Positions 4,433 to 34,087 of a stretch of DNA of 39,418 nt are shown piece after piece. The translations under genes were made by a program, and so were the position numbers. Location of the stretch: positions 1-39,418 of the forward strand of contig JALOQY010000016.1 of NCBI GenBank assembly GCA_025459285.1. Reading direction: 5' to 3'. The notes under the pieces are model-generated. The model saw only the letters and a list, made by a program, of their open reading frames with translations. It did no database searches and was not told the origin of the DNA. Source of the DNA: Planctomycetota bacterium. GTDB taxonomy: Bacteria > Planctomycetota > JAJSAM01. The first letter of the stretch is position 1. The number at the start of each line of letters is the position of its first letter.

Positions 4433-5692
4433 ATGTCCGATGTCCGCCCGTTCCGGGCCTTCCGCCCGAAGAAGGAACTCGCCGCCGAGGTGGCGGCGCC
4501 ACCGTACGACGTGCTGAACAGCGAAGAGGCGCGGGAGATGGCGAAGGGCCATCCCCTCTCCTTCCTCCACGTGGGGAAGCCCGAGATCGACCTCCCGCCG
4601 AAGACCGATCTCCATGCCCCCGAGGTCTACGCCAAGGGCGCGGAGAACCTGCGCCGGCTCGTTGGCGAGGGGGTCCTCGCGCAGGACCCGACGCCCTGCT
4701 ACTACGCCTATCAGCAGACGATGGGGAAACACGTGCAGGTCGGCCTCGTGGCCGCCGCCAGCGTCGCCGAGTACGACTCGGGACTCATCAAGAAGCACGA
4801 GTTGACCCGGCGTGACAAGGAAGACGACCGGACCCGGCACGTGGAGGTCCTGAACTCCCAGACCGGCCCGGTCTTCCTCACGTACCGGAAGAACCCCGCC
4901 ATCGACGCGATCATCGAGTCGGTGCGGCGCGAGCCGGCGTGGGTGGACTTCACCGCCCCCGACGGCATCGGCCACAAGGCGTGGGTGATCTCCGACCCTG
5001 GTCGGGTGGAGGGGCTCCGGCGCGAGTTCGGGAAGCTCAGCTGCCTCTACGTGGCCGACGGCCACCACCGCAGCGCCGCAGCCTCCCGCGTGGCCGCGAA
5101 CCGGAAGGCCGCGAACCCGAGGCACACCGGCCAGGAGGAGTACAACTACTTCCTCACCGTGATCTTCCCCGACGACCAGATGCAGATCCTCGACTACAAT
5201 CGCGTGGTCATGGACCTCCGGGGAATGACCGGGGAGCAGTTCCTTTCGAAGGTGGGCGAGAAGTTCACGGTGGCCCCGACGGACAGCCCGAAGCCCGGCG
5301 CGGCCCGCACGTTCGGCATGTACCTCGGCGGCAAGTGGTATCGGCTGGTCGCGAAGCCCGGAACCTTCCCCGAGAAGGACCCGGTGGGCTGCCTCGACAT
5401 CTCGATCCTGCAGAACAACCTGCTCGCGCCGGTCCTCGGCATCGAGGACCCGCGGACGGACAAGAGAGTAGACTTCGTGGGGGGCATCCGCGGGCTCACG
5501 GAGCTGGAGAAGCGTGTCTCCGGCGGCGCCGCGGTCGCCTTCGCACTTTTCCCGACGAGCATCCGGCAGTTGATGGCCATCGCGGACGCGGGGCAGATCA
5601 TGCCCCCGAAGTCCACGTGGTTCGAGCCCAAGCTCCGCGACGGGCTCTTCATCCACGCGCTGGACGACCGTCCCTTGGGAGGTCAGGCATGA
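4433..5692 (+). CDS. DUF1015 family protein, first gene of a serine-biosynthesis operon
   Basis: Protein of 419 residues. The start at 4433 gives the usual family N-terminus (MSDVRPFRAFRPKKE, then AAPPYDVL). Family hallmarks are LTRRDKEDDRTRH (124-136) and YVADGHHRSAAA (206-217). Its stop overlaps the serA start (ATGA), which implies translational coupling to serA and serC. The biochemical function of DUF1015 is not established to my knowledge. The DGHHR motif at 209-213 resembles that of ParB/sulfiredoxin-fold free-serine kinases (SerK, SbnI), and the gene sits beside serA and serC with no phosphoserine phosphatase in the window. A role in phosphoserine or serine metabolism is therefore an inference. 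Family membership is secure; function is not. Confidence 0.88.
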   Translation: MSDVRPFRAFRPKKELAAEVAAPPYDVLNSEEAREMAKGHPLSFLHVGKPEIDLPPKTDLHAPEVYAKGAENLRRLVGEGVLAQDPTPCYYAYQQTMGKHVQVGLVAAASVAEYDSGLIKKHELTRRDKEDDRTRHVEVLNSQTGPVFLTYRKNPAIDAIIESVRREPAWVDFTAPDGIGHKAWVISDPGRVEGLRREFGKLSCLYVADGHHRSAAASRVAANRKAANPRHTGQEEYNYFLTVIFPDDQMQILDYNRVVMDLRGMTGEQFLSKVGEKFTVAPTDSPKPGAARTFGMYLGGKWYRLVAKPGTFPEKDPVGCLDISILQNNLLAPVLGIEDPRTDKRVDFVGGIRGLTELEKRVSGGAAVAFALFPTSIRQLMAIADAGQIMPPKSTWFEPKLRDGLFIHALDDRPLGGQA

Positions 5693-6576
5693 AGATTCTC
5701 ATCCAGGACAAGTTCGACAAGTCGCTGCCCGGCCGGCTCGCGCGCTTCGGCGAGGTCTTCGAAGACCCCAAGCGCGTGGCGGAGGCCGAGGTGGTGCTCG
5801 TGCGCTCGGCGACAAAGTGCACGAAGGAGTACATCGACGGGGCGCCGAAGCTGAAGCTGATCATCCGCGGCGGCGTCGGCATCGACAACATCGACTCCGC
5901 GCACGCGAAGTCGAAGGGCATCCTGGTGATGAACACGCCGGAGGCGTCGAGCGTGGCCGTGGCCGAGCTGGCGATGGCTTTCCTCGTCGCGATCCCCGCG
6001 AAGCTCATCCCGGGCCACGTCGCCATGACGCAGAGCAAGTTCCTGAAGAAGGAGCTGAAGCGGACCGAGCTTTTCCAGAAGACGCTCGGCGTCCTCGGCA
6101 TGGGCCGCATCGGCACCGAGATCGCGAAGCGCGCGAAGGCCTTCGGCATGGAGGTCATCGGGTGCGACCCGCTCGTCCCGAAGAGCGAGCATGCGAAGAT
6201 GGTGAGCCTCGACGAACTGCTCGCGAAGTCGGACTTGATCTCCATGAACCTGCCGCTGAACGACTCCACGCGGGGCATGGTCAACGCCGCCGCGCTCGGC
6301 AAGGTGAAGAAGGGCGTGATCATCGTCAACACCGGCCGCGGGAAGACGGTGGACGAGGCGGCCCTGGCCGCCGCGCTGGCCGACGGCGTCGTCGGCGCCT
6401 ACGGGACCGACGTGTGGATGAGCGACCCGCCGGACTTCGAGAACTGCCCGCTCCTCAAGGCCCCCAACGTCTACATGACCCCGCACATCGGAGCGTCCTC
6501 GAACGAGAACCTGCTCCGGATCGGGGACTGCGTCGTCTCGATCCTCGACAAGCTCGCGAAGGAGGGAAAGCTGTGA
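5689..6576 (+). CDS. serA: short D-3-phosphoglycerate dehydrogenase (no ACT domain)
   Basis: Catalyses NAD-dependent oxidation of 3-phosphoglycerate to 3-phosphohydroxypyruvate, the first step of the phosphorylated serine pathway in the cytoplasm. The protein has 295 residues, so it is a minimal D-2-hydroxyacid dehydrogenase without the C-terminal serine-binding ACT domain. It shows RGGVGIDNID (60-69), the Rossmann loop GMGRIG (137-142), NTGRG with catalytic Arg217, and TPHIGASS with catalytic His266. The position of the conserved catalytic Glu (DVF..EP) reads DVWMSDP, so Asp246 replaces Glu. The ATG overlaps the DUF1015 stop by 4 bases and its own stop overlaps the serC GTG. Other dehydrogenases of the family are possible, but serC next door supports SerA. 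Confidence 0.88.
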   Translation: MKILIQDKFDKSLPGRLARFGEVFEDPKRVAEAEVVLVRSATKCTKEYIDGAPKLKLIIRGGVGIDNIDSAHAKSKGILVMNTPEASSVAVAELAMAFLVAIPAKLIPGHVAMTQSKFLKKELKRTELFQKTLGVLGMGRIGTEIAKRAKAFGMEVIGCDPLVPKSEHAKMVSLDELLAKSDLISMNLPLNDSTRGMVNAAALGKVKKGVIIVNTGRGKTVDEAALAAALADGVVGAYGTDVWMSDPPDFENCPLLKAPNVYMTPHIGASSNENLLRIGDCVVSILDKLAKEGKL

Positions 6577-7786: not shown

Positions 7787-9994
7787 ATGCGACATGCCCT
7801 CGTACTGACCCTGATCGCCCTGGTGGCGCTCGCGCCCGCGGCGGCCCAGGACACGAAGACTCCGCGTCTCGAGGAACTCGTTCCGGAAAACACGTTCCTC
7901 CTGGCCTCCATTCCCGACCTGCCGGCGGTGACGGCGGGCTGCAAGCAGACGGCGCTCGCGGCCCTCGTCCACGATGAGGAGGTGCAGCGATTCCTCGCCC
8001 CGCTCGGGAAGTTCATCGAGCAGGGACTCGCCGAGGTGGAGCGGGAGCTGGGCCATCCCCTCTCCTCGATCTACGCCATGCTGAAGGGCCAGATCGCCGT
8101 GGCGGTGGTGCACTTCGACCCGATGCAGGGCGGGATGGTGCCGGACGTCGCGTTCTACGCGGATCTCGGATCCTCGGTCTCCGACTTCCGGAAGCTCCAC
8201 GAGGAACTGCTGGCGAAGGGCGGCGAGGAGATGGGTGTCCGGGAGTCGGAGCACCGCGGCGTGAAGATCTGGACGATGGCGGTGCCGCCGGGGATCGACA
8301 TCTCCATGGCGTGCCTCGGCAACGCGCTCGTGGTCACGACGAGGCCGGAGCGGATGGCCGCGATGATCGACGCGGCGCAGGCCGGCCTGCCGGCGAGCCT
8401 CGCGGCGAACCAGACATTCCGCCGGGTGGGCGAGCTGACCGGCGGGGCCGGGAAGATGCTCGACGTCTTCGTGAACGTCGAGTCGATCCTCGGTTACTTC
8501 GCGGAGCAGATGGAGCCGGAGGTGATGCGCGGCCTCGAGAAGAGCGGGATCACCTCGATCAAGGGCGCGGGGTGGGGCTCGTCGTTCTCCGCCGAGGGCG
8601 TGCGCGACTCGCTGACCGTCTACGCCCCGGGCGAGAAGCGGGGTTTCCTCGCCCTGCCTTACGCGAGCAAGGGCGACGGGACCGGGCTCCTCGCGAGGAT
8701 GCCGAGGGAGGCCTTCTATGCCGCCTCCGGCTCGATGAACTTCGCCGCCTTCTACGGGATCCTCCTCGAGACCCTCGGGGCGATCGAACCGTCGGCCCTT
8801 GACGAGGCGACGGGGTACATCCAGCACTTCGAGGAGGTGATGGGCCTCCGGCTGCTGGAGGATCTGCTCGTCCCCATGGGCGAGGAGTTCGGGTTCTACT
8901 CGGCCATGCCGGACGGCGGCGGGCTCATCCCGGACCTCGTCCTCCTGATGCGCCCGAAGGACCCGGCGAAGCTCCTCGCGACCCTCGACCAGCTCGTGGC
9001 GAAGATCGGCGCCATGGCGGAGGACTCCGGCGACGCGAAGGTGGAGCACCGGCGGATGGATTTCTCGGGCCGGGAGATCCACTACGTCCACGTCACGCAG
9101 CGCTGGGGGGACCCGTTCCCGGTCACCCCGTGCTACGTCCTCCACGGCGACCTGGTCGCCTTCGGGCTCTACCCGCAGGTCCTGAAGGACTTCGTGGCGC
9201 GGCCGATCGACGCCCCGGCGGTGCTCACGCGGCCCGACTTCCAGCGCGTGGTGAAGGGCCTCCCGGAGGGCCTCGCCTCGCTCGAGTACATGGACCTGGC
9301 GGCGGGGGTCCGGCTGCTCTACGGAACGCTCGTGCCCATCGCCCAGATGTTCGGGAAGTCCGAGGAGATCCCGCTGGACATGGCGCTCCTCCCGCGCACG
9401 GCGATCGTGGCCAAGCACTTCTTCGGCATGGCCACCGGGATGAAGCTCGACGCGGACGGCTTCACGATGCACTGCTACTCGCCCACCGGCCTCATGCCCT
9501 TCATGGCGGCCATGATGGGAGTCGGGTACTTCACGGCGAGCCGGGCGCAGGCGGTCCGACCTCCGGACGTCTGGGTCCAGCCCGAACCCTACCGGCCGGA
9601 CGAGGAGCCGATGGAGGCCGACGGCGTCGAAGCCCAGCGTCTGCACGACCTGTACGTGGCACTCCTCGAGTACTTCAGCAAGCGCGAGGACTACCCCGCG
9701 GAGATCGGCCAGCTCGTGGAGGCCGAGTGCCTCGACTCGGCGGAGGCGCTCGTCCTGCCGGGCGATCCGGAGCCGGCCTCGACCGCATCGGGCCACAAGA
9801 CCTCCTTCGGCTATGCCGGCGGGGGAGTCGGTCACGTCCTCGACCGGCAGGACGAGGCGGTCTGGATCTACGAGCGGGATGGTCTTCGTGAGGAGGCCCG
9901 GTGGGTGCTCTTCGCGAGCGGCCGCGTCCGGCTCGTGCCGGAGGAGGAGTTCCGGAAGCTCCTCTCCGAGACGCTGAAGTTGATCGGGAAGTGA
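7787..9994 (+). CDS. large secreted DUF3352-like protein of unknown function
   Basis: Protein of 735 residues. The ATG at 7787 has a good GGAGG site and opens a signal peptide (MRHALVLTLIALVALAPAAA, cut near Gln21). The body has a duplicated pattern typical of DUF3352-like exported proteins: P.NT.L..SIPDL near the N-terminus, IAVAVVHFDP and DVAFYADLG strands, and later LLMRPKDPAKL and ALLPRTAIVAKHFFG. No catalytic motif or membrane anchor after the signal is evident. It stands alone between two hairpin terminators. Function is unknown. The family name is my recognition of overall pattern, not a motif-level proof. Confidence 0.72.
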   Translation: MRHALVLTLIALVALAPAAAQDTKTPRLEELVPENTFLLASIPDLPAVTAGCKQTALAALVHDEEVQRFLAPLGKFIEQGLAEVERELGHPLSSIYAMLKGQIAVAVVHFDPMQGGMVPDVAFYADLGSSVSDFRKLHEELLAKGGEEMGVRESEHRGVKIWTMAVPPGIDISMACLGNALVVTTRPERMAAMIDAAQAGLPASLAANQTFRRVGELTGGAGKMLDVFVNVESILGYFAEQMEPEVMRGLEKSGITSIKGAGWGSSFSAEGVRDSLTVYAPGEKRGFLALPYASKGDGTGLLARMPREAFYAASGSMNFAAFYGILLETLGAIEPSALDEATGYIQHFEEVMGLRLLEDLLVPMGEEFGFYSAMPDGGGLIPDLVLLMRPKDPAKLLATLDQLVAKIGAMAEDSGDAKVEHRRMDFSGREIHYVHVTQRWGDPFPVTPCYVLHGDLVAFGLYPQVLKDFVARPIDAPAVLTRPDFQRVVKGLPEGLASLEYMDLAAGVRLLYGTLVPIAQMFGKSEEIPLDMALLPRTAIVAKHFFGMATGMKLDADGFTMHCYSPTGLMPFMAAMMGVGYFTASRAQAVRPPDVWVQPEPYRPDEEPMEADGVEAQRLHDLYVALLEYFSKREDYPAEIGQLVEAECLDSAEALVLPGDPEPASTASGHKTSFGYAGGGVGHVLDRQDEAVWIYERDGLREEARWVLFASGRVRLVPEEEFRKLLSETLKLIGK

Positions 9995-31126: not shown

Positions 31127-31765
31127 TTGTCCATACTCGACCGGATCCGGAAGCTCTTCGGCGGGGAGGAAATCCCCGAGGAGGCCGCCCGCATCTACCG
31201 GATGAGCCGGGACGAGCGGGAGGCCCTCGAACGCTTCGAGGAAGAGCGGGGCCGCGCCCACCGCCATCGCCTGACGCTGATGGATGACGTGTCCGCGCTG
31301 GCCGAAGAGGAGGAGAAACTGCTCGACAGGGGGCGGGCGGAGACCTCCGGCGTCCGCCGCCGGCTCGTGGCGAAGCAGGTAGCGGAGGTGCGGTCGGCGG
31401 TGGAGGCGCTGCTCCATCGCGTGGACCTCCTGACGCGACGGATCGCCGTCTTCGACCGGCAGACGGGGCTCATCCGGGACCGTGCGGTACTGGCCGCGCC
31501 GCTTCCCGGCCTCGACGAGGTCGAACGGACGGCGGGCGACGCGCTGGCCGCCCGGCGGAGCTTCGAGGAGGTGGAGGCGGCCTCGGAGCTGGCCGCGGCC
31601 GTCGCGCGGCCAACGGACGTGAGCGAAGCGGAGCGGCGGGCGGAACGCGCCTTCGCCGCGGAGCACGAGATCGAACCCTCGTTCGAAGAGATGCTCGCCG
31701 AAGAGGAGGCGCGCCTCCGTCCCCGGCGATCGGACGAGAAAGCCACGGAGGCGCTCGAGGGGTGA
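31127..31765 (+). CDS. ESCRT-III-like helical protein 1
   Basis: Protein of 212 residues, nearly all helix. The TTG start follows GAGGAGG and immediately abuts the upstream stop. The N-terminus MSILDRIRKLFGG is amphipathic, like the membrane-inserting ANCHR region of Snf7/CHMP proteins. Two long charged helices (about 27-66 and 72-120) would form the basic ESCRT-III hairpin, with VRRRL (76-80) at the start of the second. The C-terminal third is acidic and ends in EPSFEEMLAEEEARLRPRR (184-202), roughly like an MIT-interacting helix. It shares the VRRR(I/L)xA(R/K) stretch with the next protein. Resemblance is by layout and motif; sequence identity to known CHMPs is low. Confidence 0.6.
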   Translation: MSILDRIRKLFGGEEIPEEAARIYRMSRDEREALERFEEERGRAHRHRLTLMDDVSALAEEEEKLLDRGRAETSGVRRRLVAKQVAEVRSAVEALLHRVDLLTRRIAVFDRQTGLIRDRAVLAAPLPGLDEVERTAGDALAARRSFEEVEAASELAAAVARPTDVSEAERRAERAFAAEHEIEPSFEEMLAEEEARLRPRRSDEKATEALEG

Positions 31766-31769
31766 ACGG

Positions 31770-32387
31770 ATGGGATTTCTCGACTGGTTCCGCCGTGACA
31801 AGAAACTGACCGACTACTCACCGGAGGACCTTCGCCGCGAGGAGGGGAGGCTCGAAATCCGGGAGGCGCAGGCCGTGTCCCGGCTGGAGAAGGCCGAGGA
31901 GGCGCGCAAGGAGGTCTTCCGGCAGGGACTGGCCGTGAAGTCCCCGGTCCGGCGGCGGATCCTCGCCCGGAAGTACGAGGAGAGGGAGACGGAAATCCGG
32001 CGCCTCGAATCGGAGATCTCGCGGATCCTCAAGGAGAACATGACCGTCTCCGCGCTGCGCTACCGGCTGGAGCGCAAGGGCAAGTCGGAGTCGGCGCTCC
32101 TGAAGAAGATCGGAGAGGCGGACGTCGAGGCGCTCCGCGAGCTCGTGGAGAACGACGGGGTCGGCGAGGAGATGTACCGGGAGAAACTCACGACCCTCCT
32201 CGGCGTGCTCGAAGGGGCGGAGGCCGAGGCCGACCCGCTCGCGGCCGTGGGCCGGGAGGGCCGCGCCGTCCTCGAGGTCTGGGAGCGCATGGACCAGGGC
32301 GCGATCGCCTCCGTGGAGGAGGGGCTCCGGGAGGCCCGGGACCTCGCCGGTGGAACGGTCCCCGAATCGGGGGAAAGCCAGGCCTGA
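31770..32387 (+). CDS. ESCRT-III-like helical protein 2
   Basis: Protein of 205 residues. The N-terminal MGFLDWFRRDKK is amphipathic and aromatic. Helices at about 18-52 and 60-105 form a probable hairpin rich in Lys, Arg and Glu (SPVRRRILARKYEERE at 58-73). Shorter helices follow up to an acidic tail. The order basic hairpin, shorter helices, acidic tail is that of ESCRT-III subunits. Paralogy with protein 1 is suggested by the shared VRRR(I/L)xA(R/K) segment. The ATG lies 4 bases after the previous stop. A generic coiled-coil protein, or a PspA-like protein, is the alternative. Confidence 0.6.
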   Translation: MGFLDWFRRDKKLTDYSPEDLRREEGRLEIREAQAVSRLEKAEEARKEVFRQGLAVKSPVRRRILARKYEERETEIRRLESEISRILKENMTVSALRYRLERKGKSESALLKKIGEADVEALRELVENDGVGEEMYREKLTTLLGVLEGAEAEADPLAAVGREGRAVLEVWERMDQGAIASVEEGLREARDLAGGTVPESGESQA

Positions 32388-32388
32388 C

Positions 32389-32994
32389 ATGGGGATCTTC
32401 AAGTCGAAGGCCGAGAAGCGGATCGAGTGGGAGATCACGGTCCGCAAGGGGCTCGCGCGCATCCGCCGGCAGATCGGGAGCCTCGAGCGGAACGAGCAGG
32501 GCTTCGTGGCGAAGGCGCGGCGCGCGAAGGCGATGGGGGCCGCCGACCAGTTCGCGTTCCTCCGGGCGACGCTGAAGAAGACGGCGTCCCAGCGGCGACT
32601 CCTCGAGCGGCAGCTCCTGAACCTGGAGACCGCGGTGCAGATCCGCGACCAGGTCGAGGCGAACGCCTCCTTTGCCGAGGCCATGGGCGCCGTGAGCCGG
32701 GCCATCGGACAGATGTTCTCGTCCGTGGACCTGACGAAGACCCAGATGCAGTTCGAGAAGGCGATGGGGCAGGCGCAGAGCATGGAGGAGCGCGTCGCCC
32801 TCTTCCTCGACATGTCGGCGGGAGCGATGACCGACTACGAGGGAGCGCCGGAGGATCTCGTGCCGGACGACGAGGTGGACCGCATGCTCGGCGAGGAGGC
32901 CGCCGCCGCGGAGGGCGCGGTGAACGACCGCGAGATCGCCGAGGGGCTGGCCGCCGTCCGGGACGAACTCCGGAAGGACCGGGAGCGGAAATAG
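32389..32994 (+). CDS. ESCRT-III subunit, CHMP2/Vps2-like
   Basis: Protein of 201 residues. It lines up with eukaryotic CHMP2/Vps2 over most of its length: N-terminal GIFKSKAEKR, basic helices 1 and 2 (14-90, with AKARRAKAMG and LLERQLLNLETAVQ), then ANASFAEAMGAVSRAIGQM (91-109), which matches the N.SM..AM..V..AMG.M signature before helix 3. TKTQMQFEKAMGQAQSMEE (116-134) matches the M..FE....... M.. helix, and the acidic DLVPDDEVDRMLGEE matches the linker and helix 5. The C-terminal helix AEGLAAVRDELRK (184-196) resembles an MIT-interacting motif. ESCRT-III polymers bend and cut membranes. The adjacent MIT-AAA ATPase supports this strongly. PspA/Vipp1 is less likely given the CHMP-type signature. 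Confidence 0.82.
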   Translation: MGIFKSKAEKRIEWEITVRKGLARIRRQIGSLERNEQGFVAKARRAKAMGAADQFAFLRATLKKTASQRRLLERQLLNLETAVQIRDQVEANASFAEAMGAVSRAIGQMFSSVDLTKTQMQFEKAMGQAQSMEERVALFLDMSAGAMTDYEGAPEDLVPDDEVDRMLGEEAAAAEGAVNDREIAEGLAAVRDELRKDRERK

Positions 32995-33007: not shown

Positions 33008-34087
33008 GTGCTGGACTTCGAACTGCGCAACTTCCGGCGACTGCGCGAAGAGGGCCTTGCCGCGTTCCGCGCGGGGCGCCGCCGGGAGGCGCGGCTCACG
33101 CTCCTTCGTGCGTCGGAGGCGCTCTTCCGGATCGCCTCGAAGTCCGACGAGCCCTTCCGGTCGGAGCGGAGCCGGGGGGCGCGCGAACTCCTCGGCCTCG
33201 CGAGGAGCATCTCCGGGGAAGCGCCCGCGGAGGGGGTGGGGGGCGAGGGCGCGCGCTTCGTCCCCGCCGAGCGGCCCGCCGTCACCTTCGCTTCCGTGGC
33301 CGGGCTCGACGAGGTGAAGGAGGAGATCCGGCTCCGGATGGTCTACCCCTTCCTCCACCCGGAGGCCGCGGCACGGTACGGGGTGCGGACCGGCGGCGGG
33401 CTCCTCCTTTACGGGCCGCCGGGCACCGGGAAGACGCTCCTCGCCCGGGCCACGGCGGGGGAGATCGACGCGGCCTTCTACACCGTGCGCCCCTCGGACG
33501 TCCTGTCGAAGTGGGTGGGGGAGGCGGAGAAAAACGTCGCCGCCCTCTTCGCCGAGGCGCGTGCGCGGCCGCGATCGGTGGTCTTCATCGACGAGGCGGA
33601 GGCGCTCGCCCCGGTGCGCACGGGTGACGCCGGCTCGGTGATGAGCCGGGTCGTCCCGCAGTTCCTCGCCGAACTGGAGGGGGTCGCGGGACGCGGCACG
33701 AACGCCCTCCTCTTCATCGGGGCGACGAACGCCCCCTGGAACCTCGACCCGGCGATCCTCCGGCCCGGGCGGTTCGACGAGTTGGTGTACGTCCCCCTGC
33801 CCGACGCCGAGGCGCGCGCGGGGATCCTCGCCCTCGAACTGGCCGGCAAGCCGCTGGTGCCGGAGGCGGACCTGGAGGCCCTGGCCGCCGCGCTCGACGG
33901 TTACTCCGGCGCCGACCTCCGGCTCGTGGTGGAGAAGGCCGTGGGGGAGTCGTTCCTGTCGGAGGTCCGGGGGGGCGCGCCACGCCGGATCGGGGTCGAG
34001 GATCTGCTGGCGGCGGCCCGGGAAGTCGCGCCGTCCGTGGCCCCGGAGGCGCTGAAGCGGTACGAGGAGTGGGCCGGGGCGGCGTGA
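33008..34087 (+). CDS. Vps4-like AAA ATPase with N-terminal MIT-like domain
   Basis: Protein of 359 residues; GTG start after a GGGGAG site. Residues 1-70 form a three-helix MIT-like bundle (EEGLAAFRAGRRREARLTLL, then AREL..LARSI). A linker leads to VAGLDEVKEEIRL. The AAA module has Walker A GPPGTGKT (136-143), the pore loop KWVGEAEKNV (Lys168-Trp169-Val170) typical of Vps4/katanin/spastin, Walker B VFIDEAEAL (Asp195, Glu196), sensor 1 GATNAPWNLD as in Vps4, and RPGRFDE with two arginines as in FtsH/p97. PSVAPEALKRYEEW at the C-terminus matches the meiotic-clade closing helix. The Vps4 beta domain is absent. It presumably disassembles the ESCRT-III proteins encoded upstream. Confidence 0.88.
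   Translation: MLDFELRNFRRLREEGLAAFRAGRRREARLTLLRASEALFRIASKSDEPFRSERSRGARELLGLARSISGEAPAEGVGGEGARFVPAERPAVTFASVAGLDEVKEEIRLRMVYPFLHPEAAARYGVRTGGGLLLYGPPGTGKTLLARATAGEIDAAFYTVRPSDVLSKWVGEAEKNVAALFAEARARPRSVVFIDEAEALAPVRTGDAGSVMSRVVPQFLAELEGVAGRGTNALLFIGATNAPWNLDPAILRPGRFDELVYVPLPDAEARAGILALELAGKPLVPEADLEALAAALDGYSGADLRLVVEKAVGESFLSEVRGGAPRRIGVEDLLAAAREVAPSVAPEALKRYEEWAGAA

Follow-up and report, generated by a model that had tools for sequence, protein, structure and literature searches.

A planctomycete operon encoding a putative set of three divergent ESCRT-III-superfamily subunits together with a Vps4-like AAA ATPase

The archaeal Cdv system combines several ESCRT-III-type subunits (CdvB, CdvB1 and CdvB2) with a single Vps4-like ATPase, CdvC, and the ESCRT-III machinery of eukaryotes and Asgard archaea likewise pairs multiple subunits (Snf7–Vps24–Vps2; the CHMP proteins) with Vps4. 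By one account such a system is confined to archaea and eukaryotes (PMC10936438), and bacteria are described as being without a clear Vps4 homologue (PMC7615534). Within the ESCRT-III superfamily, bacteria are represented by PspA/Vipp1/IM30, of which PspA usually acts as a single homopolymer without Vps4 (PMC7615534). Bacterial Snf7-clade genes in the neighborhood of AAA ATPase genes, as well as VPS4-like transfers to bacteria, have already been noted in the main text of a survey of PspA/Snf7–AAA neighborhoods (Ravi et al. 2024, PMC11237479), so the general idea of such a pairing is not wholly new. Unlike in the locus described here, however, a TPR/6TM gene had taken the place of snf7 in the VPS4-like transfers discussed there, and the Snf7 homologs discussed there carried a transmembrane segment. 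The main text of that survey contains no occurrence of the string "Planctomyc" and no three-subunit set from Planctomycetota; a targeted literature search did not find the three-subunit planctomycete operon either, although an earlier description may exist.

The operon lies within a 39,418-nucleotide stretch (referred to here as the window) of contig JALOQY010000016.1 from a Planctomycetota bacterium, the source genome being a draft metagenome-assembled genome (MAG) of 5.0 Mb in 534 contigs that is 88% complete. It comprises the following genes:

P0001, 30365..31126, + strand: upstream partner of A, with a helix-turn-helix/winged-helix-like C-terminus as judged by eye
A, 31127..31765, + strand: 212 aa; ESCRT-III-superfamily-like subunit, closest to PspA/Vipp1
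B, 31770..32387, + strand: 205 aa; ESCRT-III-like subunit, fold closest to archaeal CdvB/CdvB2
C, 32389..32994, + strand: 201 aa; CHMP/Snf7-family ESCRT-III protein with the MIM1-like C-terminus DREIAEGLAAVR
AAA1, 33008..34087, + strand: 359 aa; Vps4-like AAA ATPase with an MIT-like N-domain

These genes form a tight operon with intergenic gaps of 0–13 nt, in which the stop codon of P0001 abuts the start of A. The preliminary description had been right about where the A and B reading frames lie and about their N-termini, MSILDRIRKLFGG and MGFLDWFRRDKK, respectively; A starts with a TTG codon preceded by AGGAGG, and B with ATG. At one end the operon is flanked by ruvB, ubiE, a gene for a UbiX-type flavoprotein and ubiA, and at the other by dnaX, ybaB and recR. 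Because of these ordinary bacterial neighbors and the recurrence of the operon in many genomes, misassembly of the contig was rejected. Moreover, A and B are real genes, since their homologs occur phylum-wide in the same order, with A detected by its profile in 49 of 294 Planctomycetota genomes. An anti-phage defense system was also considered and set aside, PADLOC having returned nothing for P0001 or the three subunits, and no more than generic AAA matches to the ATPases.

In combining several ESCRT-III-type subunits with a Vps4/CdvC-like ATPase the operon resembles the archaeal Cdv system; unlike that system, it resides on a bacterial chromosome, no CdvA was found, its subunits are far more divergent from one another, a second AAA ATPase is often present, and a role in division is without support. 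The resemblance to eukaryotic and Asgard ESCRT-III lies in the multiplicity of subunits, in the possibly MIT-like N-domain of the ATPase, and in C, which scores as a member of the Snf7 family, aligns to CHMP3, SNF7 and CHMP2A, and carries a candidate MIM1-like tail. A and B, in contrast, are not recognizable CHMP orthologs, and no link to ESCRT-I, ESCRT-II or ubiquitin was seen.

C is homologous to ESCRT-III. In the window, C exceeds the Pfam Snf7 cut-off (27.6 bits against 27.3), and 18 of 37 relatives match that model at E <= 0.01; a profile built from the 37 relatives retrieved only ESCRT-III chains from the PDB, the best being CHMP3 (E 6e-4). The charge of C by halves, +11 and -12, corresponds to a basic N-terminal and an acidic C-terminal half. 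Among 81 C tails, a relaxed MIM1 pattern occurs in 36 (about 6 in shuffles) and a strict pattern in 7 (0.35 in shuffles), which leaves more than half of the tails without a MIM1-like motif even by the relaxed pattern.

AAA1 contains one AAA cassette (Pfam AAA, 2e-36) with a near-invariant pore loop, SKWVGE. Pore loops of this type are typical of Vps4, katanin and spastin. The Vps4_C domain scores 18.1 bits in AAA1 of the window, under the cut-off of 21.3, and exceeds the cut-off in the relatives at loci L051, L082, L116, L117 and L120. Against NCBIfam, the AAA domain of AAA1 scores 216 bits with CDC48, 203 with CdvC and 196 with PAN, and thus does not on its own separate Vps4 from CDC48; the CdvC model aligns along the full length of a clostridial AAA1. 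As for the N-domain, its profile reaches the MIT chains of Vps4B and Sulfolobus at E 0.04–0.6, with TPRs matching at better E-values, and the Pfam MIT model gives 24.5 bits in the clostridial member L116, below its cut-off of 30. The second ATPase, AAA2 (L045:6772-7971 and its equivalents), has the pore loop SKYFGESSK and an MIT-like N-domain that is homologous to the N-domain of AAA1 (E 2e-9).

Neither A nor B has a Pfam or NCBIfam match. AlphaFold2 modeled A (mean pLDDT 83 from 34 homologs) with helices at residues 3–10, 30–71, 75–123, 129–159, 167–175 and 186–197, and B (mean pLDDT 83 from 40 homologs) with helices at 18–55, 59–103, 116–127, 133–144, 162–175 and 182–193. The model of A has the predicted layout of an ESCRT-III fold, that is, a short N-terminal helix, a long α1–α2 helical hairpin (pLDDT over 90 throughout) and short C-terminal helices; that of B likewise has a predicted α1–α2 hairpin, short α3 and α4 helices, and α5. 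The hairpin, whose absence would have spoken against an ESCRT-III relationship, is thus predicted in both. When the models were compared with the PDB by Foldseek, ranks 1–9 for A were all Vipp1 (best E 0.13, prob 0.94), with CHMP2A–CHMP3, Asgard ESCRT-IIIB, PspA and Snf7 at lower ranks, and for B, filaments of CdvB2 or CdvB, the best neighbors of this subunit, occupied ranks 2–6, 9–11 and 13 (CdvB2 E 0.65, prob 0.92). By our own count, ESCRT-III-superfamily chains make up 22 of the top 50 matches of A and 17 of the top 50 of B. The best E-values were 0.13 for A and 0.62 for B, so that neither protein had a match at E 0.001, and generic hairpins such as CT398 and designed bundles also appear among the matches; the fold evidence is therefore suggestive rather than decisive.

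The affinity of A for PspA extends to its sequence profile. Compared by hhalign with a planctomycete PspA profile, A gave 69.9% (E 4e-5 local, 9e-7 global) and a score of 38.3, against at most 29.8 in 60 shuffles; B gave no match to the PspA profile. Both proteins end in acidic tails, as originally proposed, with a net charge of -8 (A) and -9 (B) over the last 60 residues. By halves, B is basic N-terminally and acidic C-terminally (+7/-13), and in A the first half is not basic (-1/-10), so that this pattern is weak. The suggestion that both begin with short amphipathic peptides held for A, the hydrophobic moment of which is high (0.67), but not for B, the N-terminus of which is hydrophobic with an amphipathicity not above that of shuffles of itself. 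A VRRR motif does stand where the second of the long helices is predicted to begin in each protein (VRRRLVAKQ from residue 76 of A, helix 75–123; VRRRILARK from residue 60 of B, helix 59–103). Close relatives keep the pattern VRRR(I/L)xA(R/K), but neither the wider A family nor the wider B family conserves it, and we rejected it as a shared family signature.

Are the three subunits related to one another? With small alignments, sequence comparison detected no A–B, A–C or B–C relation. We then used enlarged profiles, in which B was pooled with its common form B' (one family with B, E 1e-9) and with clostridial B, and A was pooled with the A domains of Phycisphaerae. With these, hhalign linked A to B (96.7%, E 3.8e-10) with a score of 68.7, where 60 heptad-block shuffles reached no more than 27.8, and B to C (E 5e-4) with a score of 30.2, against 23.5 in 60 such shuffles; the A–B and B–C scores from an earlier version of the profiles also exceeded those of reversed controls. 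The two links appeared only with the enlarged, diverse B profile, and a direct A–C relation was not found by hhalign even then. Pairwise profile comparison, which had been put forward as a check, therefore detects a relation among the three, although the link to C is thin, and the term "paralogs" used in the preliminary description stands only in the sense of deep homology (A–B strong, B–C weak, A–C undetected directly). Its assertion that A and B are ESCRT-III-like gains support from the predicted hairpin folds, the enrichment of ESCRT-III chains among the Foldseek matches, the A–B–C chain of profile scores above shuffles, and the linkage of both genes to one of the Snf7 family and to one for a Vps4-like ATPase.

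This linkage extends across the phylum. A Pfam Snf7 search identified carriers in 26 of the 294 genomes; the more sensitive C profile identified 53 (about 18%), and A and C occur together in 47 (Fisher p 3e-45, a value that overstates independence because the genomes are related). A single scan across the genomes of 84,980 species yielded 88 relatives of C, overwhelmingly from Planctomycetota MAGs, and we kept 80 loci (designated by L numbers), every one of them from a MAG. The order A–B–(AAA2)–C–(AAA1), in which the genes in brackets are not always present, recurs in dozens of Planctomycetota loci. AAA2 lies between B and C in most loci of the phylum and is missing from the operon and lineage of the window; some families have two copies of B. 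P0001, which has no Pfam match, has homologs directly 5' of A in L051, L056, L088, L045, L103, L076 and L044, and some of these homologs carry an extra N-terminal MerR-like helix-turn-helix. In all 24 Phycisphaerae loci examined, P0001 and A are joined in a single ORF, with a P0001-family domain (99.8%, E 1e-28) in front of the A domain (98.2%, E 3e-14). This fusion provides an independent functional tie between P0001 and A, and because A sits in the upstream ORF, most Phycisphaerae loci read B–C or B–C–AAA1.

Several further genes were seen in or beside relatives of the operon. In clostridial MAGs (L116, L117, L118 and L120), genes for a B-like protein, a C-like protein and a Vps4-like ATPase (in L117, at 4952-5548, 5707-6288 and 8212-9366) adjoin an SPFH/Band-7 gene that bears zinc ribbons, and in L116 a BrxL-like Lon ATPase is also encoded downstream; a Sumerlaeota MAG contig (L046) carries C and AAA1. 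Another partner, conserved and roughly 600 residues long (L045:9726-11624, L110:9835-11574, L056:1550-3373), the C-terminal half of which resembles WD40 propellers, has no Pfam match in the members scanned and was undetected in the window's own genome by a search that lacked a positive control. Next to the operon, a gene for a Ser/Thr protein kinase is seen repeatedly (L110:3883-5019, the copy scanned, Pkinase 122 bits; kinase-like N-termini by eye in L045, L071, L079, L103 and L119), and in family f25 a Kdo/WaaP-type kinase gene (L037:6653-7444) lies between AAA2 and C.

Taken together, we consider it fairly likely that A, B and C belong to the ESCRT-III superfamily as three divergent subunits and work with the Vps4-like ATPase of their operon as a membrane-remodeling machine. 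The main rival to such a machine, with its mixed filament, is a protective coat of the PspA kind, in which A, B and C would form a static or slowly exchanging layer that patches and stabilizes damaged membrane, the AAA ATPases and the winged-helix regulator would control its assembly, and no scission would occur. We regard this as rather unlikely, even though PspA/Vipp1 is the nearest relative of A in both fold and profile, the clostridial version adjoins an SPFH/Band-7 gene, pairings of PspA with SPFH and with winged-helix proteins have been described (PMC11188069), and PspA_IM30 has no match in the window's draft genome. C is of the Snf7 type and not of the PspA type, and canonical Psp systems are without a Vps4-like ATPase (PMC7615534), whereas the present operon pairs three subunits with one. 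PspA is, moreover, found above cut-off in 75 of the 294 phylum genomes, including 23 of the 53 carriers of C; since PspA and the system co-occur, simple replacement of PspA was dropped as a general rule. That A and B, as unrelated helical-hairpin scaffolds, have only converged on an ESCRT-like shape, leaving C as the sole ESCRT-III protein, strikes us as unlikely: the want of a Pfam family for A and B, the undetected A–C relation and the individually insignificant Foldseek scores would fit it, but A–B and B–C profile scores above all 60 heptad-preserving shuffles and above reversed controls, the enrichment of ESCRT-III chains in both Foldseek lists, and the phylum-wide linkage of A, B and C argue otherwise.

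A Cdv-like division machine, severing the bud neck or septum of FtsZ-less planctomycetes, appears very unlikely. An FtsZ/tubulin-family gene was undetected in the window's draft genome and in 288 of the 294 phylum genomes, C is present in none of the 6 FtsZ-bearing genomes, and proteins of the same kinds serve the archaeal Cdv systems; the association with the absence of FtsZ is not significant (p 0.6), however, and the genes adjoining the operon are not division genes. With the system carried by only about 18% of the genomes of the phylum, and with relatives from the same order lacking both the system and FtsZ, it is not the general division machine of the Planctomycetota.

For the membrane-remodeling machine that we favor, we envisage the following course. 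A, B and C would attach, probably through their N-terminal helices, to the inner face of the cytoplasmic membrane, where their hairpins would stack into a mixed filament composed of a PspA/Vipp1-like (A), a CdvB-like (B) and a CHMP/Snf7-like (C) subunit. The MIT-like domain of AAA1 would read the MIM1-like tail of C, and AAA1 might then extract subunits singly, so that the composition of the filament shifts and the changing filament deforms, seals or severs the membrane. Co-polymerization, the order in which subunits would be recruited, tail recognition, membrane binding and the cellular role are inferred; an ordered co-polymer of A, B and C, as put forward in the preliminary description, is compatible with the conserved three-subunit operon. 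An operon that is conserved in an FtsZ-poor phylum and that encodes three ESCRT-III-like subunits together with one or two Vps4-like motors would open two questions to direct tests in bacteria: how composite ESCRT-III filaments arose, and how membranes are cut independently of FtsZ.
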